A stretch of DNA of 24,729 nucleotides. Origin: a virus. The stretch covers positions 1 to 24,729 of the IMG/VR virus record IMGVR_UViG_3300028073_000041, one strand, 5' to 3'. Positions 3,889 through 18,791 of this stretch are shown here, piece by piece. The translations under genes and the position numbers were made by a program. Position 1 is the first letter of the stretch. Each line of letters starts with the position of its first letter. Under the pieces are notes generated by a model, which saw only the letters and a program-made list of their open reading frames with translations, did no database searches and was not told the origin of the DNA.

Positions 3889-4066
3889 CTTTAAATGCCA
3901 AGTATGCAATAAAGAGTTTGAGATGATTTTAAAAATGGATGAAGATATTACTCGTTATCCAGGATGCGAAAATGTTGAGTGTTTTATTAAAAAAATTCCT
4001 AGTGCCTGTGGTATTAAATTTAATGGTTCTGGATTTTATATAAATGATTATAAGGAGAAAAAATGA
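3875..4066 (+). CDS. FmdB-like zinc ribbon protein
   Basis: I place the start at ATG 3875 (MPIYDFKCQVCNKEFE), which is the usual beginning of FmdB-family zinc ribbons; AGGG lies about nine bases upstream. The longer frame from 3848 would add nine residues not seen in the family. The 63-aa protein has CQVC, then a degenerate second half (GCENVEC instead of CP-x-C), followed by FNGSGFYINDYK, which matches the family's FKGSGFY-x-TDY end. Such proteins are small and occur in many phages; function is unknown, with a regulator role often assumed. The stop overlaps the next ATG (ATGA). Confidence 0.72.
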   Translation: MPIYDFKCQVCNKEFEMILKMDEDITRYPGCENVECFIKKIPSACGIKFNGSGFYINDYKEKK

Positions 4067-5082
4067 AGTTTATTTTAGTAAGTATTTTTAGTATTGGGTT
4101 GATGTTCTCTCAACCTACTGTGTCGCCTTCTAGTGTGAATGTGACTTTTGATTTAGCAACAGATACAATTGTTGCTGTACCTGACGTAACAATTTCTTCA
4201 AATGCAGCACCTTTTGCATTTACTACAGTTGTTCCATCCAATCAGCAAGCTGTTCTTGTTTGGCCTGTTCAGGGTTTTCTGGCACCTGGAACAAATCAAG
4301 TTGTAAAGATGTCTGTAGTAAATAATGGTCTTTCTGTTGGATCTTATAATATTCCAGTTAACTTTGTTCAGAATTCACCATCTGTATCTGTTTCTGTGGG
4401 TATTAATCTTACAGTAATTGATTCACGAACCTTTACTACTTCAACCGATCCAATTATTCCCCATATTGCATCCGGTGGTGGTTGGACAACAACTGTCAGA
4501 CTAACAAACACATCCAATTGGATCAGTCTAGTTACTCTGAAGTTTTATGAACCTTCGGGAACAAATTCACCATTCTTTATTAATGGAAATTATGTTTCTG
4601 AACATTCTGTCGTTGTTCCTGGAAATGGTTCCGTTGATGTAGTTCTATCAGATCCACTTTCACTAAAGACTGGTTCTTTGGATATTAAGACTGTATATGG
4701 TTCTGGTGTAGTTGCTCAGGCAACATATTCAAATGCTTCTTTTGAAGCAACGATTTCAAGTTCTATTGCTAATCGAGATGGATTCTCATTACCATACGAT
4801 AATTATGGTTCTTTTTCAACTGGATTAGCTCTAGTTAATTATCTAAATTATACACAAGAAGTAGCATTTACTTTTTATGATAATCTAGGAAATCAAATCC
4901 ATACAGATAAAATTACTCTTCCTGCAAGGGGTCAAACTGCCTTAACACTAGACGTAGCTTTCCCACAAACAAAAGGAAAAGTTGGTTCTGTTCGTGTTAA
5001 GACTACACGTTCTGCACTAACTGGATTTGGTTTGAAGTTTAATCGTGATAAGGGTTATTTCACAACAATTCCTATCTTCTAA
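4063..5082 (+). CDS. Secreted acidobacterial-type beta-rich protein
   Basis: A 339-aa exported protein with an N-terminal signal peptide (MKFILVSIFSIGLMFS, cleavage near residue 16-17). Residues about 20-120 look like a BACON- or Ig-like beta domain (alternating V/T/S, PSSVNVTF, GTNQVVKMSV, GSYNIPVNF). The rest has HIASGGGWTTTVRLTN (about 134), then LPYDNYGSFSTGLALVN (about 247), then LPARGQTALTLD, and near the end LTGFGLKFN and FTTIPIF. I know this order of motifs from extracellular proteins that are abundant in Acidobacteria (GGGW-x-TT-x-L-N, LPFDN-x-G-x-x-TG-x-AL-N, LGLRFN-x-x-G-x-FTSIP). It lies at the end of an operon closed by a strong terminator. Its role in the phage, such as surface decoration or virion attachment, is unknown. 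Transfer from a host is likely. Confidence 0.75.
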   Translation: MKFILVSIFSIGLMFSQPTVSPSSVNVTFDLATDTIVAVPDVTISSNAAPFAFTTVVPSNQQAVLVWPVQGFLAPGTNQVVKMSVVNNGLSVGSYNIPVNFVQNSPSVSVSVGINLTVIDSRTFTTSTDPIIPHIASGGGWTTTVRLTNTSNWISLVTLKFYEPSGTNSPFFINGNYVSEHSVVVPGNGSVDVVLSDPLSLKTGSLDIKTVYGSGVVAQATYSNASFEATISSSIANRDGFSLPYDNYGSFSTGLALVNYLNYTQEVAFTFYDNLGNQIHTDKITLPARGQTALTLDVAFPQTKGKVGSVRVKTTRSALTGFGLKFNRDKGYFTTIPIF

Positions 5083-6556: not shown

Positions 6557-6671
6557 TACAATAGAAGAAAAAAGACAAGATGTAATAGCTAGAAATTGGC
6601 TAAATAATTGGAAATTAAACGATAAAGACCAAAAAATCATAGATGAATATCTACAAATGTTAAAAAATAAA
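6549..6671 (+). CDS. Small helical protein, GTG start, coupled to dut
   Basis: A 40-aa frame starting at a GTG that overlaps the dut stop region (GTGTCTAA), with AGGAAG six bases upstream as ribosome site. The product is charged and probably helical (TIEEKRQDVIARNW, then LNDKDQKIIDEYLQMF). It stops immediately before the operon terminator, which supports it being a real last gene. No family recognised. Confidence 0.5.
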
Positions 6672-6701
6672 AAAACTCAGGATTTCTCCTGAGTTTTTTG
6701 T
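6671..6701 (+). terminator. Rho-independent terminator
   Basis: CTCAGGA/TCCTGAG stem with TTTC loop, extended by A6/T6. It ends the 5116-6671 operon just before a late promoter. Confidence 0.88.
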
Positions 6702-6705
6702 TTAT

Positions 6706-6713
6706 ATAAATAT
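6706..6713 (+). promoter_or_regulatory. T4-type late promoter
   Basis: TATAAATA, an exact match to the T4/cyanophage late -10 box recognised by the gp55-type sigma. It lies just after a terminator and 40 bases ahead of a virion structural gene with a strong ribosome site. Confidence 0.8.
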
Positions 6714-6752
6714 TTTTACATATTGAAAAATTTTACCTTATAAGGAGAAAAA

Positions 6753-7724
6753 ATGTCACTTTGGGGAAATAAAGATTCCAAAACAATTACAGGAACATCA
6801 ATTTCTGTAACACAAAATAGTGCAGCAGTCACAGGAAGTGGAACAGCATTCACAACAGATTTAGAACCAGGACAATATTTAGTTATTTCTGGTGTTGAAT
6901 ATAAAGTTTTATCAATCACAAGCGATACTGCATTAACATTAGCTGTAGTTTATGCTGGAACAACAGCAACAATTACAATTTCTGGAAACGTAACAGCTAA
7001 CGAAAAACCATCATATATTCCAACAGCAGATATTCCAAATGTTTATGGTGTTGACTCAACAGAAATTTCTGTTGGTTCAGACAATGTTGTAAACGTTGCA
7101 ATTATTTCTGGTGGAACACAATATATGGAAGCACCAGCCGTTTCATTTAGCGGTGGTGGTGGTTCTTCTGCTGCTGCAACTGCTACAATTTCAGGTGGTG
7201 TTGTAACTGCAATTGCTGTATCAAATGTTGGTTCATCATATACATCAGCACCAACAGTTACTGTTGGTAAGCCATTTGCAACAATCGCAACATCAGCAGT
7301 TAACACATCAACAGAAGTTATTACATATAATTCACATAGATTTGTAACTGGTGATGCTGTCACATATTCAAATGGTGGTGGTTCAACAATGGGTGGTTTA
7401 ACAAATGCCACTGTTTATTACATTAATAAAACTGGTGGCAATACATTTAAACTATATGATACATTAGCTAATGCACAAACTGGTGGTGCTACTGGTTTAA
7501 TGGATTTAACCGGAACTGGTAATAACGCACAAACATTAACACTAACTTCCGGTGAAGCAACAGCAGCATCAGTTTTAGGTTCTGGTAATAAAGGTTTCCA
7601 TGCTGGTTGGGTTAAGAAAACAGTAGGAACTGGTGGACGTGCTGGACGTGTTCAGTATGAAACACTAGTTGCTATGGGAACAATCACTGGTGACGCAGAA
7701 GATATTAACTTCCCAGACGCATAA
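6753..7724 (+). CDS. Virion structural protein of cyanophage/T4 type
   Basis: A 323-aa protein with a strong ribosome site (TAAGGAG) and a late promoter upstream. It begins MSLWGNKDSKTITGTSISVT, has repeated beta-rich GT/SV segments, a Gly/Ser/Ala tract (FSGGGGSSAAATATISGG, about residue 130) and a distinctive end (NKGFHAGWVKKTVG, then GGRAGRVQYETLVAM). I recognise this start (LWGNKDS) and the HAGW-x-x-RTVGTGGRAGR-type end from structural proteins of marine T4-like phages, where the gene is strongly expressed late. The central part (residues 100-180, GGTQYMEAPAVSF and YTSAPTVTVG) resembles the YxxxP-x-V-x-F fibre repeats. Whether it decorates the head or belongs to the tail is not readable. 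A terminator follows. Confidence 0.72.
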   Translation: MSLWGNKDSKTITGTSISVTQNSAAVTGSGTAFTTDLEPGQYLVISGVEYKVLSITSDTALTLAVVYAGTTATITISGNVTANEKPSYIPTADIPNVYGVDSTEISVGSDNVVNVAIISGGTQYMEAPAVSFSGGGGSSAAATATISGGVVTAIAVSNVGSSYTSAPTVTVGKPFATIATSAVNTSTEVITYNSHRFVTGDAVTYSNGGGSTMGGLTNATVYYINKTGGNTFKLYDTLANAQTGGATGLMDLTGTGNNAQTLTLTSGEATAASVLGSGNKGFHAGWVKKTVGTGGRAGRVQYETLVAMGTITGDAEDINFPDA

Positions 7725-7794: not shown

Positions 7795-7995
7795 ATGAAT
7801 CATATTAAATATAAAGATATAGATTTAGAATTTGATGATAATGTAGAAATTGTTATTGAAGGAGATAAAATTGTTGTTCGTTCTAAAAATCAATTTTATT
7901 TTTATCCTTATCCTCAATATCCTCAATATCCTCAATATCCTCAATATCCAACAATAACATGGACAAGTTCAAATACAGATTTTAATACCCCATAA
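7795..7995 (+). CDS. Short protein with tandem Pro-Gln-Tyr repeats
   Basis: A 66-aa product. I use ATG 7795 rather than 7753, since the latter lies inside the terminator/promoter. Residues 1-37 form a compact, strand-rich segment (LEFDDNVEIVIEGDKIVVRSK), followed by a YFYPYPQYPQYP-type tract: four identical nine-base units, CCTCAATAT, at 7912-7947. The tail is TITWTSSNTDFNTP. Aromatic-proline repeats like this are sticky, flexible linkers and could bind a surface or partner. The exact DNA repeats suggest recent slippage expansion. Expression is from a near-leaderless host-type promoter, thus probably early. No family recognised. Confidence 0.55.
   Translation: MNHIKYKDIDLEFDDNVEIVIEGDKIVVRSKNQFYFYPYPQYPQYPQYPQYPTITWTSSNTDFNTP
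7912..7947. repeat. Four tandem copies of a 9-base unit
   Basis: Four exact copies of CCTCAATAT, each coding Pro-Gln-Tyr, within the small gene at 7795-7995. Copy number may vary between relatives. Confidence 0.9.
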
Positions 7996-8001
7996 TGGTA
8001 T

Positions 8002-8009
8002 TATAAATA
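8002..8009 (+). promoter_or_regulatory. T4-type late promoter
   Basis: TATAAATA, exact late box, about 55 bases ahead of the Hsp20 start. A perfect 9-bp inverted repeat (TAATGAGAT/ATCTCATTA, 8011-8019 with 8030-8038) follows at the expected start of transcription. Confidence 0.72.
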
Positions 8010-8010
8010 A

Positions 8011-8038
8011 TAATGAGATGCCTAAAAGGATCTCATTA
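8011..8038. repeat. Inverted repeat in the hsp20 leader
   Basis: TAATGAGAT and ATCTCATTA around a ten-base loop, starting two bases after the late box. As RNA it would be a 5' leader hairpin, as DNA a possible operator. There is no T-run, so it is not a terminator. Confidence 0.5.
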
Positions 8039-8064
8039 AATCACTCGCTTAAATGGAGAAAAAC

Positions 8065-8490
8065 ATGACACTAAGACGTATTAATTTAGATACATTTCCT
8101 TTCCCTTCTTATGATAATTTAACCAGTTTTTGGGCAGAACAGGCCAAACAAACTGGAACTTATCCTCCTTACAATCTCACAAAAAATGAAGATTCAACCA
8201 AATTCAATATTACTCTAGCAGTTGCTGGATTTGGTCCTGAAGATTTGGATGTTTCAATTGAAGAAAATCAATTAATCATTCAGGGTAAGGTGAAGCCTAA
8301 GAATTTACCAGAAGGTATTTCTTATGTACATAAGGGAATTGCTGAACGAGTCTTTACTAAGACATTCACTTTAGGTGAACATGTTGAAGTAAAAGATGTA
8401 ACTTATCAAGATGGACTACTAGATGTTAGTCTAGAACTAGTTGTTCCTGAACATAAGAAACCAAAGAAGTTCACAATTTCAACTAAATAA
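8065..8490 (+). CDS. hsp20: Small heat shock protein (Hsp20/alpha-crystallin)
   Basis: A 141-aa chaperone of the alpha-crystallin family; such proteins hold unfolded proteins and are a regular component of T4-like cyanophages. I start at ATG 8065, because GGAG lies just upstream of it, inside what would be codons 1-3 of the longer frame from 8053. Family features: N-terminal aromatic segment (DTFPFPSYDNL), YPPYNLTK, the alpha-crystallin core FNITLAVAGFGPEDLDVSIEEN-region (about residues 47-68), IAERVFTKTFTL (about 92-103) and the strand DGLLDVSLE. The C-terminal I-x-I/V motif is not evident, which may limit oligomer size. Driven by a late promoter. Confidence 0.9.
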   Translation: MTLRRINLDTFPFPSYDNLTSFWAEQAKQTGTYPPYNLTKNEDSTKFNITLAVAGFGPEDLDVSIEENQLIIQGKVKPKNLPEGISYVHKGIAERVFTKTFTLGEHVEVKDVTYQDGLLDVSLELVVPEHKKPKKFTISTK

Positions 8491-8521
8491 GGAGGGGGGG
8501 AGAATCTCCCCCCAAAATAAA
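8490..8521 (+). promoter_or_regulatory. Shine-Dalgarno plus GC hairpin ahead of a GTG start
   Basis: AGGAG (8490-8494) is followed at once by an 8-bp hairpin (GGGGGGAG/CTCCCCCC, 8495-8502 with 8506-8513), then AAAATAAA and the GTG at 8522. Folded, the hairpin would bring the ribosome site to a normal eight-base spacing. It lacks a T-run and so is not a good terminator. Confidence 0.5.
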
Positions 8522-8803
8522 GTGAAAACATATATTGAATGTGAATGCACATCATTACAACATGTTGTTAGAATGGATCTTTACTTAGATCCATATGATA
8601 CAACCGAAACACCAGAACTGTTTTTAACAATGCATTTATCTCCACTTCCTTTTTATAAGAGGTTAGTTAATGGAATAAAATACATATTTGGTTATCGTTC
8701 TATATTTGGTGATTTTGATGAAACTATTGTCAGTCCTGAATCTGTCACACAAATAAAAAACTTGTGTGAAAAATATGAAGAACTTTATAAGAAAATTAAA
8801 TAA
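8522..8803 (+). CDS. Conserved small phage protein, GTG start
   Basis: A 93-aa protein beginning at GTG 8522; a longer frame would lie within hsp20 and the hairpin. The sequence pattern (TYIECECTSLQHVVRMDL, then LFLTMHL, FYKRLVNGIKYIFGY, FDETIVSPESV, and a helical end) matches a small protein seen in many tailed phages, with CEC-H near the start, a central R-x-x-x-x-I/W-K-Y-I-x-G segment and D-E-x-I-x-x-x-S. Function unknown. A hairpin ATGGATCT/AGATCCAT lies within its early codons. It probably shares the hsp20 transcript, with terminator-like hairpin downstream. Confidence 0.68.
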   Translation: MKTYIECECTSLQHVVRMDLYLDPYDTTETPELFLTMHLSPLPFYKRLVNGIKYIFGYRSIFGDFDETIVSPESVTQIKNLCEKYEELYKKIK

Positions 8804-8806
8804 AAA

Positions 8807-8835
8807 ATCGGGAACCAATGGTTCCCGATAAGTGT
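8807..8835 (+). terminator. Probable terminator
   Basis: A perfect 10-bp stem ATCGGGAACC/GGTTCCCGAT with a three-base loop, followed by a weak T-tract (AAGTGTTTT). It separates the hsp20 transcript from the receptor gene. Confidence 0.65.
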
Positions 8836-8877
8836 TTTAGGGGTAAAAAAATTAATTAAATTGTAACAAAGGAATCT

Positions 8878-11800
8878 ATGAAATATTTATTAAGTTTATT
8901 TTTATTAACGACTAGCCTATTCAGTCAAGAAGCTTCTATTAGAGGAAAGATTTTTGATAAGAATGAAGAAGTAATTATTGGTGCAACTGTTAAGATTCAG
9001 AACGAAAAAACTGGATCTGTAAGAGAAGTTGTAACAAATGAAGTTGGTGAATACATTATCACAAATCTACCTGCTTCATCTTATAATGTAAAAGCTTCTG
9101 CTCCTGGTTTTGCAAATACACAGAAAACAGGAATTAAACTATTAGTTAATGAATCTATTGGTATTAATTTCATCTTAGTACCTCAAATTATTAAGACTGA
9201 AATTATTGTTGAAGGTGGCGAAGTTACATCTATTGATACATCCTCAGCGAAGATTGGTGTTAATGTTTCTGAAAGAGAAGTTTCAAATCTGCCACTAAAT
9301 GGTAGACAAATTTCGCAGTTATATCTATTAGCTCCAGGCGCTTCAACTGCTGGTGGTGGTACATTTGATAATATTAAGTTTAGCGGTAGATCTAATCAGC
9401 AAAATGCTATTAGATATGATGGTATTGAAGGATCTTCTATTATTGATGCTTCTCCAGGTAATCTAAATGGACAGATTTCTTCATTTTTTAGATTACAATC
9501 TTCAATGGAAAATGTTCAAGAATTTCGTGTTGAATCTAATAATTATCCAGCAGAATATGGTACAGGAACTGGTGGTCAAATCACAATTGTAACTAAGTCT
9601 GGTGGTAATAAGATTCATGGTGGTGTTTTTGAATATCTTAGAAATAATGTATTAGATTCTAGAAATTTCTTTGATGCTACTAAGAATCCTTTACGTCTAA
9701 ATCAATTTGGTGGCTCTATTGGCGGTCCAGTAAAGCAAGATAAGACTTTTTGGTTTGCTTCATATGAAGGTCTAAGGCAGAGACAATCAGTTCCATTTAG
9801 AGAAGCTGTTCCATCAGAATCAGCAAAAGCAAGAGCAGTTCCACAAGTTAGAAATCTTCTAGCACTTTATCCAGTTGGAAATATTCCAACAACAGATCCA
9901 AATGCTTCTATTGTTGCTATTGATAGAAAACAGACTGTAGATGAAAATTCGTTTGGTCTAAGATTAGATTCAAAAATTTCAGATAATCTTTCTGGATATT
10001 TCCGTTACTTCAGAGATAATGGTAAGTCAATTCAACCACTAGGTGTTACTGGAAATTCTATTGATGTTACTGCGGTCCCACAAAATGCTGTAGCAAATGT
10101 TCAATGGATTATCTCGCCACAGAAAATTAATGAAACCAAGATTGGATTAAATGCTTATAAAACAAGAGCATGGGGAACTGCACCAATTGTAAATAACTTT
10201 AATCCAGCAGATATTTCAATTAATCTAACTGGTGGCGTTGCTTTATCTGGTATTACAACACAAGGTTCAAGCACAGGATTTGCTACTGCTGGTGGTCTAG
10301 TAAGATCAAATTCTGCTACAAATGGACGTGGACAACCTTATACTAATACTTCAATTACTTTGATTGATAATTTTTCATGGATTAATTCTTCTCATAATTT
10401 TAAGTTTGGTGGAGAATTAAGATTTATCCGTTTATTTACAGATCGTCTTGGTGGTACAACTTATAGCTTCTCAAACGTAGAAGATCTAATTAATAATCGT
10501 CCATTACAAATTCAATTTTTGGGAGATCTTTCTGCACCTTCTCCGTTTAATAATGGAGCAACTGGAGAAAGACAAATTACTCAGAATTATCTAATTGGTT
10601 ATGCACAAGATGAATGGAAAGTATTTTCTAACTTTACTGTTAATTATGGAATTAGATATGAATTCTATTCAGTTTTCAAAGAAAAGAGAAATCTATTAGT
10701 TAATTGGTCACCAGAAACAGGAAACATTTTACCAAATAATCTTCCTGTCTATCGTTCAAATAAAGATAATTTTTCACCAAGATTATCTGGAACTTGGAGT
10801 CCAAAATCTCTAAATGGTAAGACTGTATTTCGTGTAGGAACTGGTGTTTATTTTGGACCTGGACAACCAGAAGATCTAATTCAACCATTTGAATCTGATC
10901 GTGTTAGTAAGACTATAACTAATACAACTTATCCAATTAATCCTACTTCAATTATTGCTTCTTACAATATCAATGATCCAAATCTTCGATTTCAACCAAG
11001 AGCTTATTCTTCTGGTTATAATATTCCGGAAACTGTTTACTCATATACAGCATCAGTTCAACAACAAATTAAAGATAATGTTTTAACTGTTGCATATGTT
11101 GGTTCTCTTGGTAGAAATCTGTTTATTAGAACTCTTGGAAATCTAATCACAGATGTAACTCCTACTGGAACTGTAAAGAGACAATGGGGTGATAGATTTG
11201 CTGAAGTTGACGTAAAGACATCAGGTGGTAATGATCATTATAATGCTTTACAGGCAACTCTAAACAGAAAAACAAAGAGTGGTCTAACTTATGGTGCATC
11301 ATACACATGGGGAAGATCAATCGGTTCATCTGGTGGCTCAAATGAAACTGTAACTGTTGCAAATCCTTATAATTGGAGAACTGATTATGGTAATAATGCG
11401 GCGGATATTCGTCATAATTTAAATGTTGTTGGATTGTATGAATGGAAAACATGGCAGATCGGTTCTGTTATCAATACCAGATCAGGTCTTCCTCTTGATC
11501 CATTAATCGTCAGAAACGATATTATCTTCTTTGACAAATCATCTGGAATGTACTATAATAGTTCTGTAGGGTCTAATTCTGTAGCTGTTATTAATGTTCC
11601 TGGTGGTGGTCAAACAAGACAAATCCGCAGACCTGATTATGTATTAGGAGTTTCGCCATATATCAAGAATTCTGATAAAACAATTTTCTTGAATCCTGCT
11701 GCTTTCTCAGTACCAATGCCTGGAACTTTTGGAAATGCTTCTAGATACTCATTAAGAGGTCCAATGCTTTTCCAAGCAGATCTAACTCTTCAGAAAAAGA

Positions 11801-12063
11801 TTTACACTAAAGACAAATATAATTTAATTTTCAGAACAGAATTATATAACATCTTTAATAATGTAAATTTTGCAAATCCTCCAGCACAATTACCAAATGC
11901 AATTCCATCCAGAATTGGTCAGTCTAATACACTACAACCTGGACAGGTTTATTCAAATGCAACAAAAGGAGCAGCATTCGGAACAGTACAATCAACACTA
12001 GATAAAACTGTTGGTCTGGGAACTTCTAGACAGTTACAGTTAAGTCTAAGAGTCAATTTTTAA
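8878..12063 (+). CDS. Oar-like TonB-dependent-receptor-type outer membrane protein
   Basis: A complete 1061-aa outer membrane beta-barrel protein with AAGGAA ahead of its ATG. Order of parts: signal peptide (residues 1-16, ending SLFS before QEASIRG); a carboxypeptidase-regulatory-like beta-sandwich (about 19-90: IRGKIFDKNEE, GATVKIQNEKTG, TNEVGEYIITNLPAS, YNVKASAPGF); a plug-like region (about 130-245: VSNLPLNGRQISQLYLLAPG, FSGRSNQQNAIRYDGIEGSS, AEYGTGTGGQITIVTKSGGN); HGGVFEYLRNNVLDSRNFFD and GGSIGGPVKQDKTFWFASYEG; then a barrel ending in aromatic LSLRVNF. That exact plan is typical of the Oar/TonB-dependent receptor expansions in Acidobacteria. A TonB box is not obvious. The codon use is as AT-rich as the phage, so the gene is adapted, not freshly acquired. 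It is not part of any known T4 core module. Confidence 0.9.
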   Translation: MKYLLSLFLLTTSLFSQEASIRGKIFDKNEEVIIGATVKIQNEKTGSVREVVTNEVGEYIITNLPASSYNVKASAPGFANTQKTGIKLLVNESIGINFILVPQIIKTEIIVEGGEVTSIDTSSAKIGVNVSEREVSNLPLNGRQISQLYLLAPGASTAGGGTFDNIKFSGRSNQQNAIRYDGIEGSSIIDASPGNLNGQISSFFRLQSSMENVQEFRVESNNYPAEYGTGTGGQITIVTKSGGNKIHGGVFEYLRNNVLDSRNFFDATKNPLRLNQFGGSIGGPVKQDKTFWFASYEGLRQRQSVPFREAVPSESAKARAVPQVRNLLALYPVGNIPTTDPNASIVAIDRKQTVDENSFGLRLDSKISDNLSGYFRYFRDNGKSIQPLGVTGNSIDVTAVPQNAVANVQWIISPQKINETKIGLNAYKTRAWGTAPIVNNFNPADISINLTGGVALSGITTQGSSTGFATAGGLVRSNSATNGRGQPYTNTSITLIDNFSWINSSHNFKFGGELRFIRLFTDRLGGTTYSFSNVEDLINNRPLQIQFLGDLSAPSPFNNGATGERQITQNYLIGYAQDEWKVFSNFTVNYGIRYEFYSVFKEKRNLLVNWSPETGNILPNNLPVYRSNKDNFSPRLSGTWSPKSLNGKTVFRVGTGVYFGPGQPEDLIQPFESDRVSKTITNTTYPINPTSIIASYNINDPNLRFQPRAYSSGYNIPETVYSYTASVQQQIKDNVLTVAYVGSLGRNLFIRTLGNLITDVTPTGTVKRQWGDRFAEVDVKTSGGNDHYNALQATLNRKTKSGLTYGASYTWGRSIGSSGGSNETVTVANPYNWRTDYGNNAADIRHNLNVVGLYEWKTWQIGSVINTRSGLPLDPLIVRNDIIFFDKSSGMYYNSSVGSNSVAVINVPGGGQTRQIRRPDYVLGVSPYIKNSDKTIFLNPAAFSVPMPGTFGNASRYSLRGPMLFQADLTLQKKIYTKDKYNLIFRTELYNIFNNVNFANPPAQLPNAIPSRIGQSNTLQPGQVYSNATKGAAFGTVQSTLDKTVGLGTSRQLQLSLRVNF

Positions 12064-12064
12064 T

Positions 12065-12280
12065 ATGATGACAAATGAACAAAAGATAGAAATCTACGAA
12101 GAACTTCTGCATAGAATCCAACTCTATGCAGAAGTTACACTAGATTCAGAAAAACTAAATAATTTAATAAGAAATATTTGTAAATGGTCCTATGCACATA
12201 GAGTTGGAAATGGTTATTCACCAATTGAAGAGTTAGATGAAAGGATTGAAAATGCAACCAAAAAATTATTGGAAAGATAA
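12065..12280 (+). CDS. Conserved small phage protein
   Basis: A 71-aa helical protein. The motif ICKWSYAHRVGNG (residues about 39-51) is one I associate with a small protein conserved in many T4-like and other phages, where N-x-CxWSYAHR-x-GNGE is typical. No function is known. The start could be either of two adjacent ATGs (12065 or 12068). A perfect 14-bp hairpin, AACTTCTGCATAGA with TCTATGCAGAAGTT, lies in codons 13-24. The next gene overlaps its 3' end. Confidence 0.72.
   Translation: MMTNEQKIEIYEELLHRIQLYAEVTLDSEKLNNLIRNICKWSYAHRVGNGYSPIEELDERIENATKKLLER
12102..12136 (+). repeat. Perfect 14-bp inverted repeat within a CDS
   Basis: AACTTCTGCATAGA and TCTATGCAGAAGTT flank a seven-base loop (ATCCAAC) in codons 13-24 of the 71-aa conserved gene. 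No T-run follows. Confidence 0.85.
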
Positions 12281-12893
12281 ATTTGAAGATATTATGTATA
12301 GTGTAAAATATAGATATCATAATATCTTGAATTCTATTAGATATAGAACAACTAGAAGATATTATATTGTAAATAGTGGTTTAAAACCTGGATATTATGA
12401 CACAGGTGAACTCATTTTACATGTTAATTTCAAGCTTCTTGTTGATTTTGTTGAAATTGAAAAAGCATGGATGAATACATGGACTGATGATAGTGCATAT
12501 TCTAAGTTGTCTTGGTTTCAAAAGAAATTTTGCAGATTCCGTTCACCCCAAGATGGAATTGCATATCTAAATTGGGAAATTAATGAATCTCAATTAGAAC
12601 ATCAAACAAAATCAGCAAAAGAAATTTTAGAACTTTATACTTGGTGGAAAGTAACTAGACCAAATAGACCAGATCCATATATTGAAGCTGGTTATGATGA
12701 AGTTTTTAAAGATAAAAACTTATCTGAACATTTTATAAGAGAAGAAGGAAGTAATACTTATACTATGAAACCATTCACTAAGAAAGAAAGTGCAGTATTT
12801 GAAAAAGTAACAAAAATCGAAAATAAATATGAAAAAGAAGATGAAAAAATGTTAATTCGTCTGATGAAAATTCGCAAATCTCTTTGGACATAG
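12252..12893 (+). CDS. Conserved phage protein of unknown function
   Basis: A 213-aa soluble protein. I prefer ATG 12252, preceded by AAGGA with about seven-base spacing, over ATG 12237; both overlap the preceding gene. The recognisable stretch is LKPGYYDTGELILHVNFKLLVDFVEIEKAW (read as two parts: LKPGYYDTGELILHVNF, then KLLVDFVEIEKAW), found as PGYYD-x-D-x-x-x-LHACF-x-x-L-x-DFVE-x-E in a family common among large phages. Further motifs are W-x-TW-x, CRFRSPQDGIAYLNWE and LYTWWKVTRPNRPDPY. The C-terminus is charged and helical. Function not known. Confidence 0.75.
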   Translation: MQPKNYWKDKFEDIMYSVKYRYHNILNSIRYRTTRRYYIVNSGLKPGYYDTGELILHVNFKLLVDFVEIEKAWMNTWTDDSAYSKLSWFQKKFCRFRSPQDGIAYLNWEINESQLEHQTKSAKEILELYTWWKVTRPNRPDPYIEAGYDEVFKDKNLSEHFIREEGSNTYTMKPFTKKESAVFEKVTKIENKYEKEDEKMLIRLMKIRKSLWT

Positions 12894-12895
12894 AA

Positions 12896-13516
12896 ATGGA
12901 TAAACAACTTTTACAACCAATTTTAGATGCGTTTGTAGCACATGGAATTACTAACCCTTATTTGCAGAAAGCGATAATTGCTAACATGCAAAAAGAATGT
13001 GGTTTAATCCCAAGAGAAGAAAATCTAAATTATTGTAAAACTGACAACTCTAGAATCAAATCTATATTTGGTTCTAGAGTTTCTAAATTAACTGATTCTG
13101 AATTATCTACAATTAAATGTAATCCAAGAGAATTTGCAGAATTAATTTATGGTTCTAATAATTCTATCGGTCGTTTGATGGGCAATATAAATCCCGGTGA
13201 TGGTTGGATTTATCGTGGAAGAGGTTATATCCAATTAACAGGTAGAGCTAACTATAAGACATATGGTGATATGTGTGGATTCAATATTATTCAAAATCCG
13301 GACTTATTGGTAAGTGATAAAACTATTTCTGCTATTATTTCTGTTAAATTTATTTTAGTAGGTTTACATGGGAATACAAAATTTACTAATCAAGCAGATG
13401 CGGATAGAGCGGTTACACAAGTAATTGGTGGTAGGGGATTAAATTTAAATAGTGGATATGGTGCTGAACTTTTAGCAAAGGTTAATGATTTTTCATCAAA
13501 AATATTTCTTTCTTAG
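12896..13516 (+). CDS. GH19 chitinase-type endolysin
   Basis: A 206-aa enzyme of glycoside hydrolase family 19, here likely a muramidase or chitinase-like lysozyme that opens the host wall at lysis. Start at ATG 12896, three bases after the preceding stop; the frame from TTG 12884 is less likely. Family features: AIIANMQKECGLIPREENLNY with the probable acid/base Glu in KEC and a second Glu near REEN, GWIYRGRGYIQLTGRANYKTYG (around residue 105-125, the substrate-groove signature), and a final helix. No signal peptide is present, so it would need a holin, which I do not see in this window. A 16-pair hairpin lies in its codons 51-62. Confidence 0.87.
   Translation: MDKQLLQPILDAFVAHGITNPYLQKAIIANMQKECGLIPREENLNYCKTDNSRIKSIFGSRVSKLTDSELSTIKCNPREFAELIYGSNNSIGRLMGNINPGDGWIYRGRGYIQLTGRANYKTYGDMCGFNIIQNPDLLVSDKTISAIISVKFILVGLHGNTKFTNQADADRAVTQVIGGRGLNLNSGYGAELLAKVNDFSSKIFLS
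13046..13081 (+). repeat. 16-bp inverted repeat within the endolysin gene
   Basis: AACTCTAGAATCAAAT pairs with ATTTGGTTCTAGAGTT (one G-T wobble) around the four-base loop CTAT. It lies 150 bases into the GH19 coding sequence. Confidence 0.85.
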
Positions 13517-13551: not shown

Positions 13552-16047
13552 ATGAAATTTTATACAAATGTTGCCAGTATTGGTAATACTGTTTATGTTC
13601 GTGAAGTTAATAACGGAGTACCCTCAAATTATAAGTTTGAATATGCTCCATCACTTTATATTCCTTCAAAAAATAAATCTAACTTCAAATCTCTAGACAA
13701 TAAGTATCTAGAAAAAGTAGATTTTATAAATATCAAAGATTATAATGAATTTATTGAGAAATACAAGGATGTTTCCAATTTCTCAATTTATGGTGATATT
13801 AATCCTATTTTTTCATACATCTCAGAAAACTATCCAAATGATATTGAATTTGATATGAAACATATCAAGATTATGACTTTGGATATTGAGACAGAATCTG
13901 AACATGGTTTCCCAAAAGTAGAATACACTCAAGAACGTGTAAATTTAATTACCGTAAAAGTATTTAATTCAAAACATTATTTTACTTTTGGACTTGGTGA
14001 ATTTACTCCAAAAAATAAATATCAAAATTACATTCAATGTGAAGATGAAAGTGAACTTTTAGATAAGTTTTTACTTTTCATGGAAAAGATGCAACCAGAT
14101 ATTATTACTGGTTGGAATGTCAGATTTTTCGATATTCCTTATCTTGTAAGACGTATAAATATGATTCTTGGTGATGGAGCCAGTAAAAGACTTTCATTTT
14201 GGAAGTACATTCGTGAAAAAACTGTTATCATGAATGGAAAAGAAAATGTAACTTATGATCTTTATGGTACGTCAATTATTGATTATTATGAAATCTACAA
14301 GAAAAATGTACTTGAGCCAAGAGAATCATATAAACTAGATTTTATTGCTCAAGTAGAACTTGGTGATAATAAACTTCCCTTCGATGGTTCGTTCAAAGAA
14401 TTCTATTCAAACCATTACCAAACATTCGTTGAATATAATATTCAAGACGTTGCTCTTGTTGATAGATTAGAAGCAAAACTAAAACTAATCGAATTAACTT
14501 TAAGTGTTGCTTACTTTGGTCATGTTAATTACGTTGATGTCTTATCTCAGGTCAGAACTTGGGATACCACAATTTATAATTATCTAAAAAACAAAAACAT
14601 TATTGTTTCACAGAAGAAAAATTCATCAAAGAGTGATCAATTTGTTGGAGCATATGTTAAAAATCCAAAAGTTGGTTTCCATAAATGGGTTGTTAGTTTT
14701 GACGTTAACTCACTCTACCCTTCTATTATTCGTTTCTTAAATATCGGTGTTGAGACAAAATCCCCAAATAAGAAATTTTTTAATATTGAACAGGTATTAG
14801 AAAGTAATGACTTTTCTTTTGATAAAGATTATACTATTGGTGCAAATGGTGTAATGTATAGAAAAGATTTTATTAGTTTTTATTCTGAACTTGTTGAAAA
14901 ACTATTTAATGATAGAATTAAGTTTAGAAAATTAGCTAAGGAAATGGAGAAGAAAGCAAAAGAAAATCCCAACGATCCAGATATTGAAAATATTAATAAT
15001 CTTCAAAGTAAGTATGACTTAAAACAGAAAACAATGAAGATTCAATTAAATTCATTATACGGAGCTATGGGTAATGAATATTTTAGATTTTTTGATTTAG
15101 AAAATGCTCAAGCTGTTACAATGACTGGTCAGTTTATTATTCGTTATGTCGGTAATAAGCTAAATGATTTCTTAAACAAAAAAATTGGAACAGAAAATTA
15201 TGAATATGTGATTTATATTGATACTGATTCAAACTACATTACATTAGATCCTCTTGTATCCAAAATGTTTCCTAAAGAAACAGATAATAAAAAGATTGTA
15301 GATTATATTGATGATTTTTGTGTTAATGTAATTGAAACAGAAATTGAAAATATTTTTAAAGATATTTCTGATAATTTCTTAAACGGAATGAATCCAGAAA
15401 TCTTAAAAATGAAACGAGAAGTTATTGCTGATAAAGGTATTTGGCAAGCAAAAAAGAGATATATTTTAAACACCTATGATGTTGAAGGGTTAAGATATGA
15501 AACACCTAAACTAAAAGTCATGGGAATGGAGATTGTTAAATCTTCAACTCCAAAGTTTTGCAGAGAAGAAATGAAAAACTGCGTAAAACTAATTATGACA
15601 AGTAATGAAGAAACATTACAGAAATATATCATTGATGTAAGAAATAGATTTAATTCTTGTTCAGTTGAAGAAATATCATTTCCAAGATCAGTTAATGGTC
15701 TTGAGAAGTATTCTGATAAATCAAATATTTTTACAAAAGGAACTCCAATTCATGTAAAGGGTGCGTTAATTTATAATAACTTATTAACAGAGAAAAAGTT
15801 ATATAATACATATCCTTTAATTAATGAAGGTGAGAAAATTAAATTTATTCATTTGAAAAAACAAAATCCAACTTCAGATTCTGTTATTTCATTTAACACA
15901 AAACTTCCAAAAGAATTAGGTCTTCATAAGTATATTGATTATGAAAAACAATTTGAGAAGACATTTATTGAACCATTAAAGAGTATCTTAGATACAATTG
16001 GATGGGAATTAGAAAAAACAATCACATTAGAGGATTTATTCGGTTAA
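13552..16047 (+). CDS. 43: DNA polymerase, family B (gp43-like)
   Basis: The replicative polymerase of a T4-type phage, 831 aa, close to the usual size in cyanophage relatives and shorter than T4's 898. 3'-5' exonuclease motifs: LDIETE (Exo I, about residue 110), GWNVRFFDIPYLV (Exo II, about 190), YNIQDVALV (Exo III, about 295). Polymerase motifs: DVNSLYPSIIR (A, about 384), KIQLNSLYGAMGN (B, about 500) and YIDTDS (C, about 554). All catalytic acidic residues are present. The ATG has no ribosome site but the promoter would begin the mRNA on it. A 7-bp hairpin (CAGTATT/AATACTG) lies in codons 9-14; T4 gp43 binds its own mRNA near the start, so this could be an operator. UvsX follows three bases after the stop. 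Confidence 0.96.
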   Translation: MKFYTNVASIGNTVYVREVNNGVPSNYKFEYAPSLYIPSKNKSNFKSLDNKYLEKVDFINIKDYNEFIEKYKDVSNFSIYGDINPIFSYISENYPNDIEFDMKHIKIMTLDIETESEHGFPKVEYTQERVNLITVKVFNSKHYFTFGLGEFTPKNKYQNYIQCEDESELLDKFLLFMEKMQPDIITGWNVRFFDIPYLVRRINMILGDGASKRLSFWKYIREKTVIMNGKENVTYDLYGTSIIDYYEIYKKNVLEPRESYKLDFIAQVELGDNKLPFDGSFKEFYSNHYQTFVEYNIQDVALVDRLEAKLKLIELTLSVAYFGHVNYVDVLSQVRTWDTTIYNYLKNKNIIVSQKKNSSKSDQFVGAYVKNPKVGFHKWVVSFDVNSLYPSIIRFLNIGVETKSPNKKFFNIEQVLESNDFSFDKDYTIGANGVMYRKDFISFYSELVEKLFNDRIKFRKLAKEMEKKAKENPNDPDIENINNLQSKYDLKQKTMKIQLNSLYGAMGNEYFRFFDLENAQAVTMTGQFIIRYVGNKLNDFLNKKIGTENYEYVIYIDTDSNYITLDPLVSKMFPKETDNKKIVDYIDDFCVNVIETEIENIFKDISDNFLNGMNPEILKMKREVIADKGIWQAKKRYILNTYDVEGLRYETPKLKVMGMEIVKSSTPKFCREEMKNCVKLIMTSNEETLQKYIIDVRNRFNSCSVEEISFPRSVNGLEKYSDKSNIFTKGTPIHVKGALIYNNLLTEKKLYNTYPLINEGEKIKFIHLKKQNPTSDSVISFNTKLPKELGLHKYIDYEKQFEKTFIEPLKSILDTIGWELEKTITLEDLFG

Positions 16048-16050
16048 CAT

Positions 16051-17139
16051 ATGGCAAAAAAAGATAATTATTTTACAGATTTAGTTAAAACAACAGGAAA
16101 TAGTTACGCTGCATTAGCATCAGAAGGAATTGAAGCTGGAGATATAAACGGCTTCATTCCAACTGGTTCATATATGCTAAATGCAATTCTTTCAGGTTCA
16201 ATTTATGGTGGACTTCCAGATAATAAAATCACAGCAATTGCTGGTGAAGAAGCAACAGGTAAAACTTATCTTGTATTAGATATTTGTAAGTTTTTCTTAA
16301 ATCAAAATCCAGAAGCTGGTGTTCTTTATTTTGAAACTGAATCTGCAATTACAAAACAAACACTAGAAGAAAGAGGTATTGATACTTCTAGAGTAGCAAT
16401 TATTCCTGTAACTACAGTTCAAGAATTTAGAACACAAATGTTAAAAATTATTGAAAAGTATCTAACACAATCTAAGTCTGAACGTAAACCTATTATGTTT
16501 GTTTTAGATTCATTAGGAATGTTATCTACAACCAAAGAAATGGAAGATTCTGTTGCTGGATCAGAAACAAAAGATATGACAAGAGCAGGAATTATTAAAG
16601 CTGCTTTCAGAACAATTACATTGAAACTTGGACGTGCTGGTATTCCTCTTGTAGTAACAAATCACACATATGATGAACAAGGTAAAATGTTTTCTCAAAA
16701 AGTTATGTCGGGTGGTTCTGGTTTGAAGTATGCAGCATCATCAATTCTTTTCCTTTCAAAAGCAAAAGATAAAGATGCTCAAGGTGTTGTAGGTAATATT
16801 ATCACAGTAACTAATAAAAAAGGCAGATTAACAAAAGAAAATGCTCAAATTAAAATTAGTTTAAATTATGAAACCGGAATGAATCCATATTATGGTTTAT
16901 TAGAACTTGGTGAGAAATATGGTTTATTCAAAAAAGTTTCAAATAAGTATGAAGTTAATGGTGTACAAGCATTTGAAAAACATATTCTAAAAAATCCAGA
17001 AAAATTCTTTACAAAAGATATTTTAGATAAATTAGATGTATGTGCTAGAAATGAATTTTATTATGGTTTAAAGAAAAAGAATTTCAATGATGTAGAAACC
17101 GGAGAAACAGAAGAGGATTATGAAGATGGAGATGAATAA
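16051..17139 (+). CDS. uvsX: UvsX, RecA-like recombinase
   Basis: A 362-aa RecA/UvsX protein that coats single-stranded DNA and performs strand exchange for recombination-dependent replication. Landmarks: GSYMLNAILSGSIYGGLPDNK near residue 30-55 (two parts), Walker A AGEEATGKT (about 66-74), then ETESAI (catalytic Glu region, about 97), Walker B PIMFVLDSLGML (about 148), and VTNHTY / MSGGSGLKYAASS around residues 203-230, which is the DNA-binding loop region. The C-terminus is strongly acidic, as in RecA and UvsX. It lies between gp43 and gp41, an order shared with cyanophages. The next gene overlaps its last bases. Confidence 0.94.
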   Translation: MAKKDNYFTDLVKTTGNSYAALASEGIEAGDINGFIPTGSYMLNAILSGSIYGGLPDNKITAIAGEEATGKTYLVLDICKFFLNQNPEAGVLYFETESAITKQTLEERGIDTSRVAIIPVTTVQEFRTQMLKIIEKYLTQSKSERKPIMFVLDSLGMLSTTKEMEDSVAGSETKDMTRAGIIKAAFRTITLKLGRAGIPLVVTNHTYDEQGKMFSQKVMSGGSGLKYAASSILFLSKAKDKDAQGVVGNIITVTNKKGRLTKENAQIKISLNYETGMNPYYGLLELGEKYGLFKKVSNKYEVNGVQAFEKHILKNPEKFFTKDILDKLDVCARNEFYYGLKKKNFNDVETGETEEDYEDGDE

Positions 17140-17437
17140 TTTTAATGTCAGTATTGTAAGAATTAATGGCGAAGATAATTTTGCTATTAAAATTTTAGAT
17201 GAAAAGTACTTGAATTTAGTCTACAAGTATGATAAACTAGAAGTAGTGGATGATGTACTTTCATTTGAAATTAATGTTGTAGATAATCCAAACAATATTT
17301 CTGAAGAAGTTATATCTAATAAAGAATTTTCAGATTTTGTTGGTGAGTACTTAGTTTATTTATTAAAATCTCAGATGGAGAATGATGCATTAAATGACGT
17401 TAGAGAACATAATTCTGAAGAACTTAGTAAAGAATGA
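17120..17437 (+). CDS. Small protein between uvsX and gp41
   Basis: A protein of about 100 aa, with ATG candidates at 17120, 17126 and 17132. The site AGAGGA (17112-17117) is best spaced for 17126. The N-terminal half is strand-rich (FNVSIVRINGEDNFAIKILD), the C-terminus acidic (NDALNDVREHNSEELSKE). T4-like cyanophages have an unnamed small gene at the same position. I cannot give a function. It overlaps the gp41 start by 44 bases, so expression of the two may be linked. Confidence 0.68.
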   Translation: MKMEMNNFNVSIVRINGEDNFAIKILDEKYLNLVYKYDKLEVVDDVLSFEINVVDNPNNISEEVISNKEFSDFVGEYLVYLLKSQMENDALNDVREHNSEELSKE

Positions 17438-18791
17438 TGATTTCACAAGAAAGACTATTCCTTTCATTGAAGAGGAATATTTTAGTAATTCACATGAGAG
17501 AATTTTTTTCTCTCATGTGAAGAACTATTTCAATCAATATAATAGTTTACCTACAAAAGAAGCATTAGCTATTCTTGTAAGTAACGATAAGAATATTAAT
17601 GAGAGAGACTTTGAATCTATTAAAGAAACTTTAGAAGAAATTTCTAATGACACAGACGAAACCAACACACAATTTTTAATTGACAAGACCGAACAGTTTT
17701 GTAAAGATAGAGCAATTTATAATGCAATCATTAAGTCTGTAAATATTATTGAAGGTAAAGATGATAAGTTAGATAAAGGTGCTTTACCAAAACTTCTCAG
17801 TGATGCTTTAGGTGTTTCTTTTGATAGAAATGTTGGTCATGATTATCTTGAAAATTCCGATGAAAGATTTGAATTTTATCATCGCAAAGAAAACAAAATT
17901 CCATTTGCATTAGACTATTTTAATAGAATTACTTCTGGTGGTATTAGTGAAAAAACTCTTACTGTTATTCTTGCTGGAACTGGCGTAGGTAAATCCTTGT
18001 TCATGTGTGATATGGCTTCATCAGTTTTTATGATGGGTAAGAATGTCCTTTATATCACACTTGAAATGGCAGAAGAAAGAATTGCTGAAAGAATTGATTC
18101 TAATCTTTTAAATGTTCCAATTGTTGAAATGAGAAAATTATCTGAAGATAATTTCAACAAAAAGTTAACAGCAGTTAGAAGTAAAACAACTGGAAAATTT
18201 GTTGTAAAAGAATATCCAACCGCATCAGCTAATGCTAATCATTTTCGTGTTCTATTGAATGAATTAGCTATGAAAAAGAATTTTGTTCCAGATATTATCT
18301 TTATTGATTATCTAAATATTTGTTCAAGTTCAAGACTTAAAGTTGGTTCTAATGTAAATAGTTACACTTATGTTAAATCTATTGCAGAAGAGATTCGTGG
18401 TTTAGCTGTTGAATATTCAGTTCCAATTGTTACAGCAACACAAACCACTCGTTCAGGTTATTCAAATTCAGATGTTGGTTTAGAAGATACATCAGAAAGT
18501 TTCGGTCTTCCAGCTACAGCAGATTTAATGTTTGCTCTTATTAGTACTGAGGAACTTGAAAAGTTAAATCAGATAATGGTGAAGCAATTGAAAAATCGTT
18601 ATAATGATCCAGCCATGTATAGAAAGTTTGTTGTTGGTATTGATAGATCAAGAATGAAACTTTATGATGTCGATCAATCAGCACAAGATTTAGTTGATTC
18701 TGGACATGATGATGAAGAAGATGATTTAGAAGAAACAATTGTTAAATCTCCATTCAAATTCAAAAATAAATTTTCTGATTTTAAATTCTAA
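17394..18791 (+). CDS. 41: Replicative DNA helicase, DnaB/gp41-like
   Basis: A 465-aa hexameric helicase that unwinds DNA ahead of gp43 and works with the primase. The N-terminal helical domain begins MTLENIILKNLVKNDDF and includes SLPTKEAL, as in cyanophage gp41. The RecA-like domain has Walker A LAGTGVGKS (about residue 195), Walker B with FIDYLNIC (about 303), and motif H4-like VTATQTTRSG (about 345), followed by FGLPATADL. The C-terminus is acidic and then basic (DDEEDDLEETIVKSPFKFKNKF). ATG 17394 is chosen from the family start, although the ribosome site (GGAG) is distant. A 14-bp perfect hairpin lies at codons 32-43. Confidence 0.94.
   Translation: MTLENIILKNLVKNDDFTRKTIPFIEEEYFSNSHERIFFSHVKNYFNQYNSLPTKEALAILVSNDKNINERDFESIKETLEEISNDTDETNTQFLIDKTEQFCKDRAIYNAIIKSVNIIEGKDDKLDKGALPKLLSDALGVSFDRNVGHDYLENSDERFEFYHRKENKIPFALDYFNRITSGGISEKTLTVILAGTGVGKSLFMCDMASSVFMMGKNVLYITLEMAEERIAERIDSNLLNVPIVEMRKLSEDNFNKKLTAVRSKTTGKFVVKEYPTASANANHFRVLLNELAMKKNFVPDIIFIDYLNICSSSRLKVGSNVNSYTYVKSIAEEIRGLAVEYSVPIVTATQTTRSGYSNSDVGLEDTSESFGLPATADLMFALISTEELEKLNQIMVKQLKNRYNDPAMYRKFVVGIDRSRMKLYDVDQSAQDLVDSGHDDEEDDLEETIVKSPFKFKNKFSDFKF
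17489..17521 (+). repeat. Perfect 14-bp inverted repeat within gp41
   Basis: TTCACATGAGAGAA and TTCTCTCATGTGAA around a T5 loop, 95 bases into the helicase coding sequence. Confidence 0.87.

Follow-up and report, generated by a model that had tools for sequence, protein, structure and literature searches.

The window considered here is the whole stretch of 24,729 nucleotides, positions 1 to 24,729, of the IMG/VR virus record IMGVR_UViG_3300028073_000041. Among genes of a T4-type phage, its plus strand carries an open reading frame (ORF) at positions 8878–12063 that codes for a protein of 1061 amino acids, P0001, which belongs to the TonB-dependent receptors (TBDTs). The frame opens with an ATG, closes with a TAA and contains no internal stops; an AGGA ribosome site (8870–8873) lies shortly upstream of the start codon. 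A preliminary description, made from the sequence alone, had proposed an intact gene with its own ribosome site for a full-length Oar-like TBDT with a signal peptide, a carboxypeptidase-regulatory-like domain, a plug, a barrel and a terminal phenylalanine, and had placed it in a T4-type phage between a small gene and an endolysin. Pfam, AlphaFold2, VIA-align and the gene neighborhood bear this out. The gene is real, phage-owned and unusual.

Behind a putative signal peptide, Pfam recognizes a CarboxypepD_reg domain and a barrel of the OMP_b-brl_4 family (PF25183, residues 319–1054, E 3.8e-131). No plug family is among the Pfam matches (E up to 0.1), and searches of P0001 against PHROG and NCBIfam (E 0.001) and against PDB sequences (E 0.1) gave no match. 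The C-terminal F1061 is invariant across a 20-row alignment. Between the N-terminal domain and the plug there is a TEIIVEG stretch, a candidate TonB box by its resemblance to the usual pattern; AlphaFold2 confidence (pLDDT) in the second model is low around it, at residues 104–117. A first AlphaFold2 model, built on 20 rows, contained the barrel and left the plug unmodeled (pLDDT 64.5). Owing to a deeper alignment of 48 rows, the second model shows a plug at residues 120–240 in addition to 22 long strands (pLDDT 80.8, pTM 0.74). Aligned to solved structures by VIA-align, it matches Cir best (Z 32.5, rmsd 2.9 over 554 residues); all 50 matches listed are TBDTs, with Z of 28.5–32.5 to solved TBDTs, and the alignments begin at model residue 84–124, taking in the plug region. 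Foldseek likewise points to the TBDT fold (FusA, E 9.1e-33). Judging from the model, P0001 belongs to the TBDT superfamily, with ligand transport as its predicted activity.

The features of the locus are collected in Table 1. In addition to the Hsp20, DNA polymerase, UvsX and gp41-type helicase genes listed there, the window encodes a dUTPase. A gp23 major capsid protein is encoded by contig G002 (124 kb), which shares a 22-kb stretch with the window at 99.96% identity. The best named-phage matches of the DNA polymerase are mostly cyanophages (about 45–47%), and the receptor gene occupies the interval between hsp20 and gp43 (the polymerase gene), in an order like that of cyanophage S-SKS1.

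Table 1. Features of the window around the TBDT gene and the evidence for them.
Feature	Position	Strand	Basis or remark
P0002, second exported-looking protein	4063–5082	+	common to the window and L076–L078 phages
Hsp20 gene, left landmark of the insertion interval	8053–8490	+	phrog_432
Small phage gene directly upstream of the TBDT gene	8441–8803	+	phrog_12660
Hairpin just 5′ of the TBDT gene, terminator-like on either strand	8807–8829	.	hairpin scan
Block exchanged between two phage lineages	8832–12064	+	95.2% nucleotide identity to L004, sharp edges
Weak two-unit Pho-box-like sequence, not convincing	8851–8868	+	abuts the ribosome site
TBDT gene, P0001, 1061 aa	8878–12063	+	ORF, Pfam, AlphaFold2, VIA-align
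Putative signal peptide, residues 1–18	8878–8931	+	by eye; helix 2–12 or 2–13 in the models
CarboxypepD_reg domain PF13620, residues 20–100	8935–9177	+	Pfam E 5e-18
TonB-box-like TEIIVEG, residues 107–113	9196–9216	+	similar pattern in the same place across alignment rows
Predicted plug domain, residues 120–245	9235–9612	+	AlphaFold2 model; alignment to solved TBDTs
Predicted 22-strand outer-membrane beta barrel, terminal F1061	9613–12060	+	PF25183; strands counted on the model element list
P0003, small gene with WSYAHRVGNG motif, right landmark	12065–12280	+	relatives at empty sites
Phage gene, function unassigned, used to locate empty sites	12237–12893	+	sequence comparison
Endolysin, GH19-type	12884–13516	+	phrog_181; PF00182
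T4-type DNA polymerase	13552–16047	+	phrog_262
UvsX gene	16051–17139		PHROG match
gp41-type helicase gene	17394–18791		PHROG match

Whether other phages carry the gene had been raised in the preliminary description, and they do: it was found on eight further viral contigs, which together with the window represent four sequence versions. Version 1 comprises the window, L002 and L003; version 2 comprises L004, L005 and L006 (97% at the amino acid level); versions 3 (L076 and L078) and 4 (L077) are about 72% identical to the window protein and share 78% of nucleotides with each other. The contigs are not all independent, since 23 kb of L004 recur unchanged in L006; L005 is 99.5% identical to L004 at the nucleotide level, its copy being truncated by the contig end, and L076 hardly differs from L078 in its DNA. 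One more contig, L089, has only the last 68 residues at its end. The frame is open in every copy fetched (five copies and those of L076–L078). A phage-only alignment search returned no copies beyond those known, and 50,697 named phage records gave one match at E 1e-3, with 25% identity (MT837825.1). The matching region of that record (L007, 2535–4382) belongs to an unannotated 6-kb “Bacteriophage sp.” from human feces that may be a bacterial fragment. A plasmid search matched 37 records, the ten listed being at 22–27%.

Comparison of the window with L004 indicates that the gene has moved between two phage lineages, since the synonymous distance (dS) is far lower in it than in neighboring genes and the edges of the shared block are sharp. 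The dS values are 0.15 for the TBDT gene, 1.14 for Hsp20, 0.84 for the gene at 12237, 1.02 for the endolysin, 1.56 for the DNA polymerase and 1.22 for the helicase. The block begins at 8832, just past the hairpin, and ends with the gene at 12064; other long matching stretches between the two contigs are at 66–76%. Contigs L094, L095 and L096 have empty sites, where the matching gene order (Hsp20, small gene, relatives of the 12065–12280 and 12237–12893 genes, endolysin, a further ORF, polymerase) is present without the receptor gene; their polymerases are 82–84% identical to that of L004 and 42–44% to that of the window. The gene is thus present or absent at one site between the same neighbors, a trait of moron-type cargo. 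In L076–L078 the neighbors differ, being an RNA ligase, an exported small protein and a WSYAHR gene; neither a polymerase nor gp23 was found on these fragments, and T4-type status was thus not assigned to them. L090 was considered as a further empty site and dropped: part of its first 2.2 kb matches DNA about 10 kb downstream in L004, and positions 1–2206 appear to be a rearranged or chimeric start without the receptor gene on a contig otherwise near-identical to L004.

The codon usage of the gene is that of its phages. In the low-GC phages, GC content at third codon positions (GC3) of the receptor gene is 13.4% (window) and 14.4% (L004); it is 47% in L078 and 53% in L077, whose loci have 45 and 50% GC, and 52–82% in ten bacterial relatives compared. 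Codon usage of the window gene correlates with that of four other window genes pooled at r = 0.956, and that of three bacterial relatives correlates with the same four at −0.17 to −0.36. The ratio of nonsynonymous to synonymous rates (dN/dS), estimated by two methods, is 0.06–0.11 for window–L004, 0.09–0.12 for L077–L078 and 0.14–0.22 for the near-identical pair L076–L078; by this measure, the receptor is under purifying selection in phages. Between the window and L078, the plug is best kept (86% identity, and 97% at residues 201–240), and the CarboxypepD_reg domain (50%) and signal peptide are least kept.

A pattern scan over 84,980 species genomes returned 60 relatives of P0001, 56 of them with acidobacterial titles and the best at 55–56% identity; the closest cellular orthologue, L135 (57%), came from 299 genomes drawn from the class to which the genome of L015 belongs. 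Among Acidobacteria genomes with a match, the number of TBDT-like first-look candidates ranges from 36 to 503. In a tree of 44 rows, the five phage rows form one clade (100/100) that is sister to L009 and L010 (98/96) and is nested within Acidobacteriota, as the preliminary description had suspected of the nearest relatives. L009 is titled Acidimicrobiia, a label that we think is wrong in view of the likeness of its receptor, PhoB and PhoR to their L008 and L010 counterparts. By this phylogeny, the phage receptor descends from an acidobacterial orthologue group. It shares with acidobacterial Oar-like CarboxypepD_reg/OMP_b-brl_4 receptors the domain plan, about 40–57% full-length identity, the plug and the terminal phenylalanine, as well as an ancestor common to the phage copies and L009/L010; unlike them, it is phage-encoded, has phage codon usage and is somewhat shorter (1061 residues versus open frames of about 1081–1271).

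Similarity of DNA was also used to look for a host. Of 399 genomes from the class of a metagenome-assembled genome titled Terriglobia, 371 matched; among the matches listed, only the plug stretch of the TBDT gene (65–70%) and phage tRNAs were involved, and neither a prophage nor a spacer was seen among them, two candidates having been scored per genome. Compared with tRNAs from genomes of the Terriglobia class, identity reaches 89% for the window tRNA Asn (91% over a shorter stretch) and 87% for tRNA Thr, which may be a hint to the host. One Ignavibacteriae and one Bacteroidota genome, too few to decide the matter, gave weaker tRNA matches than two relatives from the sister group of the receptor. 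The window contains three phage tRNAs, at 1691–2537.

We next turn to the neighborhoods of the cellular relatives, where kinase, OmpR-type regulator and transporter genes recur. Seventy-eight cellular loci were tested, four of which had no match at E 1e-20 (L060, L065–L067); loci with 40% identity or more to P0001 were called orthologues. Counted as neighbors were relatives of Pst proteins or PhoU, or a PhoB at least 60% identical to that of L008. Within 6 kb, pst, phoU or phoB genes were present at 12 of 60 orthologues, as against 0 of the 14 TBDTs that are more distant; going by size, we estimate that a 5-kb operon would lie this close to any one gene of a 5-Mb genome in far fewer than 1% of cases. 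The 12 linked orthologues span 43–55% identity and include that of Terriglobus roseus (L035); the linkage of L148 depends solely on a PhoU gene at 6.0 kb. Beside L015, NCBIfam models for PstS, PstC, PstA, PstB and PhoU are matched over the cut-off, as is PstS beside L014 and L047. PhoB is the nearest model for the L008 regulator and PnpS for both kinases that were scanned, PhoR models coming next or close behind; these matches are below the cut-off. Distant kinases and regulators near L019, L028, L029, L030, L149 and L150 were left out of the count, and L051, one of the other TBDTs, adjoins a distant kinase only.

A motif search on regions upstream of pstS in the same class (30 loci fetched and 29 used, L163 being too short) retrieved three 11-nucleotide units, ttTaACa..gtTGTAACatg.cTGTAACA, carried by about 18 of the 29. 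Spacing of 11 nucleotides is that of known Pho boxes. The motif was then scored in 300 bp upstream of genes; first-order resampled shuffles served for the scoring and array tests, and plain shuffles for one further test. A Pho box at p ≤ 0.05 precedes 34 of 55 orthologues, 12 of 351 flanking ORFs and none of 13 other TBDTs; scores of at least 12 were obtained for 23 of 55 orthologues and two of 351 flanking ORFs, or, once L151 was removed as a duplicate of L027, for 22 of 54 versus two of 351 (Fisher p 1.6e-19). At L015, the site is one of the training sites read in reverse complement, shared with a divergent pstS, and so is not independent; without L015 and L151, 21 of 53 orthologues score 12 or more. 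The flanking ORFs were defined mechanically (150 amino acids or more, longest first), and those matching pst or pho genes were kept apart (10 of 40 at p ≤ 0.05). Flanking ORFs near the other TBDTs reached p ≤ 0.05 in 7 of 69 cases, more than near orthologues. As far as sequence can tell, the acidobacterial orthologue group is a Pho-regulon receptor, given the adjacency to pst/pho genes and the upstream Pho boxes.

In phages L077 and L078, four TGTAAC-like units with 11-nucleotide spacing, the second of them degenerate, lie 77 bp before the start of the receptor gene. This array ranks first among 29,778 positions in L077 and among 46,384 in L078, and was reached in 2 and 9 of 2000 shuffles, respectively. 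L077 is still significant when the test uses two or three units (30 and 10 of 2000 shuffles, respectively). The array of L076 adds nothing, its DNA being nearly identical to that of L078. With the two-unit pstS matrix, 33 (window), 10 (L004), 18 (L077) and 46 (L078) of 500 shuffles did as well. Host PhoB probably switches transcription of the receptor gene in the L076–L078 branch through this candidate Pho-box array; Pho control is not evident in the branch of the window. No sigma-70-like promoter lies directly upstream of the window copy, which may use another promoter. The late T4 promoter TATAAATA was examined as a candidate and rejected: it occurs seven times in the window, a number reached by 26 of 100 shuffles, and never directly ahead of the receptor gene.

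Phosphorus is one of the main limits on phage yield, and the known phage aid, pstS, acts in the periplasm. With slightly more than even confidence, we read the receptor gene as an auxiliary gene for phosphorus acquisition that acts at the outer membrane and comes from the Pho regulon of Acidobacteriota. Phages would have acquired it, directly or indirectly, from that regulon of their host and retained it as an auxiliary metabolic gene. In an infected cell, Sec would export the protein, the BAM machine of the host would insert it, and host TonB-ExbBD would supply the energy. What it would bring into the periplasm is a source of phosphorus, either phosphate itself or a molecule that contains phosphorus (a substrate assigned by association). 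From there, PstS-PstCAB or phosphatases of the host would take over, so that DNA synthesis would become less phosphorus-limited. Host, expression, membrane insertion, transport, substrate and benefit are what we infer, and the role in phosphorus entry is taken by analogy with cyanophage pstS and with TBDTs induced by phosphate depletion. An extra nutrient door opened in the host during infection is suggested.

Both analogies can be made specific. Cyanophages carry pstS under host PhoBR control, according to a study that also deals with the PstS-less phage S-PM2d, in which genes around gp43 (gp43, UvsX, gp41 and mazG) rise in phosphorus-starved hosts, some of them PhoB-bound (PMC10976474). The window receptor gene adjoins genes whose S-PM2d counterparts behave in this way. 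Like cyanophage pstS, it would be a host-derived phosphorus gene, its role being predicted, among phage core genes; a Pho-box array precedes it in L077 and L078, and the window locus lies near hsp20 and gp43. It differs in coding for an outer-membrane TBDT rather than a periplasmic binding protein, in its acidobacterial rather than cyanobacterial ancestry and in that Pho control is not evident in the window copy. The phosphate-utilization (Pus) systems of Flavobacterium include TBDTs that are reported to be induced by phosphate depletion (PMC8115612). These systems, in contrast to ours, are bacterial and partly of SusCD type; no SusD-like partner was recognized near the phage gene, no search aimed at SusD having been made. 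A Caulobacter TBDT discussed in connection with phosphate is reported as constitutive (PMC2996285).

Several observations weigh against a phosphorus role. As many as 48 of 60 orthologues, the closest one (L135) included, have no counted pst/pho gene in their flanks, and short flanks account for only part of these, since both flanks reach 4 kb or more in 44 of the 60, one flank does so in ten and neither in six. The four-unit test was chosen after the arrays had been seen, and L078 loses strength when two or three units are used (241 and 84 of 2000 shuffles, respectively). Phage upstream regions do not stand out under the three-unit pstS matrix (53 to 162 of 500 shuffles); the periodic four-unit test alone gives a strong result, and does so in L077 and L078. 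Upstream of the window and L004 genes, three- and four-unit scans are insignificant, and the two-unit resemblance at −27 is reached by 112 (window) and 100 (L004) of 2000 shuffles. In the cyanophage study cited above, predicted Pho boxes in phage genomes are described as unreliable, and the Hsp20 gene of S-PM2d shows neither PhoB binding nor a response (PMC10976474). Genes for PstS and PhoD were each found in none of six phage records, which are fragments and were searched for these two and not for PhoX or other phosphatases. PhoH, present in three of the six, is uninformative because one PhoH-bearing record lacks the receptor gene. Our confidence was lowered slightly by the post hoc choice of the four-unit test and by the failure to find PstS and PhoD.

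A second exported-looking protein, P0002, accompanies the receptor in the window and in the L076–L078 phages (L078:6780–7844 and L077:6796–7857, 41–43% identical to that of the window). It was not found in the records of L004–L006 and L094–L096, and has no Pfam, PHROG or NCBIfam match and none in named phages. A search matched 11 of 21 records or genomes (five phage and six bacterial); in bacteria, these are weak domain relatives in six of ten genomes searched, repeated in three, and P0002 resembles domains of secreted-type proteins in acidobacterial genomes. Upstream of the receptor gene, L078 encodes a small exported-looking protein with a CarboxypepD_reg domain (9306–9683), and L077 a similar one in the same place (9333–9677). 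It is conceivable, though doubtful, that two unlike phage groups carry a phosphorus-scavenging kit made up of a Pho-controlled TBDT and one or two secreted beta-sandwich proteins. In this reading, host PhoB would turn the gate on in starved cells, and the phage would rebuild the outermost uptake step of its host.

The preliminary description had offered superinfection exclusion, import of iron or glycans, or a decoy as functions; these proposals were not specific enough, the pst/pho neighborhoods and Pho boxes favoring phosphorus, with exclusion the less likely reading. Exclusion of other phages is the main rival to the phosphorus role, though on balance we hold it unlikely: the phage's own version of a common receptor would reduce or decoy competitors. 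TBDTs are frequent phage receptors, the structural neighbors of the model include FhuA together with T5 pb5 or the exclusion lipoprotein Llp, and the gene moves between phages as cargo. Phage-encoded outer-membrane proteins are known in the lambdoid Lc porin and in T5 Llp, which acts in superinfection exclusion; the phage TBDT resembles them in its predicted location in the host outer membrane and differs in being a gated transporter rather than a porin or small lipoprotein. A passive decoy, however, would need neither a plug nor a TonB box, whereas the whole transporter is kept, the plug most of all, together with the TonB-box-like stretch. The kept plug speaks against a mere decoy and not against a working transporter that also alters adsorption. 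Exclusion also leaves the L077/L078 array unexplained, and identity in 40-residue windows reveals no very fast-changing band except the N-terminal domain and residues 321–360 (loops were not mapped). If adsorption is the target after all, the protein would represent a new class of exclusion protein.

Somewhat less likely still is the import of another nutrient (siderophore iron, cobalamin, an oligosaccharide or a peptide) by a general TBDT, with the Pho linkage incidental or regulatory. Structural neighbors of the model in VIA-align and Foldseek are mostly siderophore, heme, cobalamin and glycan transporters, and Pfam gives a general barrel family only; yet among the other acidobacterial TBDTs tested, none of 14 neighborhoods and none of 13 upstream regions show the Pho association. 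That the gene is an accidentally captured passenger of no benefit to the phage is distinctly improbable: the related phages L094–L096 do manage without it, but dN/dS of 0.06–0.12 in two pairs, open frames throughout, four versions and full codon adaptation argue otherwise. Bacterial DNA fused to phage DNA by assembly or binning, a chimera that the preliminary description had named as a danger, is very unlikely, indeed close to negligible, despite the abundance of TBDT-like candidates in Acidobacteria genomes, given eight further contigs (not all independent), the same junctions in several of them, conserved empty sites and phage-like codon usage (GC3 of 13% against 52–82% in cells).

The preliminary description was nearly right in calling this a new kind of phage-carried envelope gene, the reservation being that a SusC in a marine phage record and ExbB in phages came earlier. 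The former, A0A8D9FQQ5 of BFVD, “TonB-dependent receptor SusC [uncultured marine phage]”, was a Foldseek match of the first, weaker model (E 5.7e-17); both proteins are TBDT-annotated in phage records, and it differs in being 805 amino acids long, SusC by name and 10% identical in the alignment. SusC also figures in the abbreviation list of a paper on phage colonization (PMC12352455), and another paper reports the TonB-system energizer ExbB in phages (PMC11361711). Among the papers listed by the literature searches, none dealt with a phage TBDT. We rate as novel the move of a phosphorus-acquisition auxiliary gene to the outer membrane, no phage having been found reported to supply the outermost uptake step. 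If true, viral control of nutrition would shift to the outer membrane, and phosphorus help would extend beyond cyanobacteria to the Acidobacteriota, which form a large phylum with few cultured members and little-known phages. Phage or no phage, one group among the many uncharacterized acidobacterial TBDTs is offered a testable function.

Small genes of the WSYAHRxGNG family recur around the receptor gene: at 12065–12280 in the window, at 7923–8138 and 9671–9910 in L078 and at about 9677–9920 in L077. They flank it on either side in different phages (directly upstream in L077 and L078) and are also present at empty sites. In the same region, L004 (9618–9884), L094 (7533–7796) and L095 (7521–7784) carry a small thioredoxin-like gene (WCSAC/WCPAC/WCAAC by eye), in place of which the window has an unrelated gene of 120 codons; L004 further encodes an IMP dehydrogenase/GMP reductase-type protein (6618–7625). 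Inside the window receptor gene, at 11531–11559, there is a perfect sigma-70-like promoter (TTGACA, 17, TATAAT) facing the lysis genes, the number of such sites in the region being equal to chance expectation. Finally, a tail-fiber-like gene (20851–22956) opens with an Mtd_N domain and contains repeats offset by 66 bp at 21627–21963.

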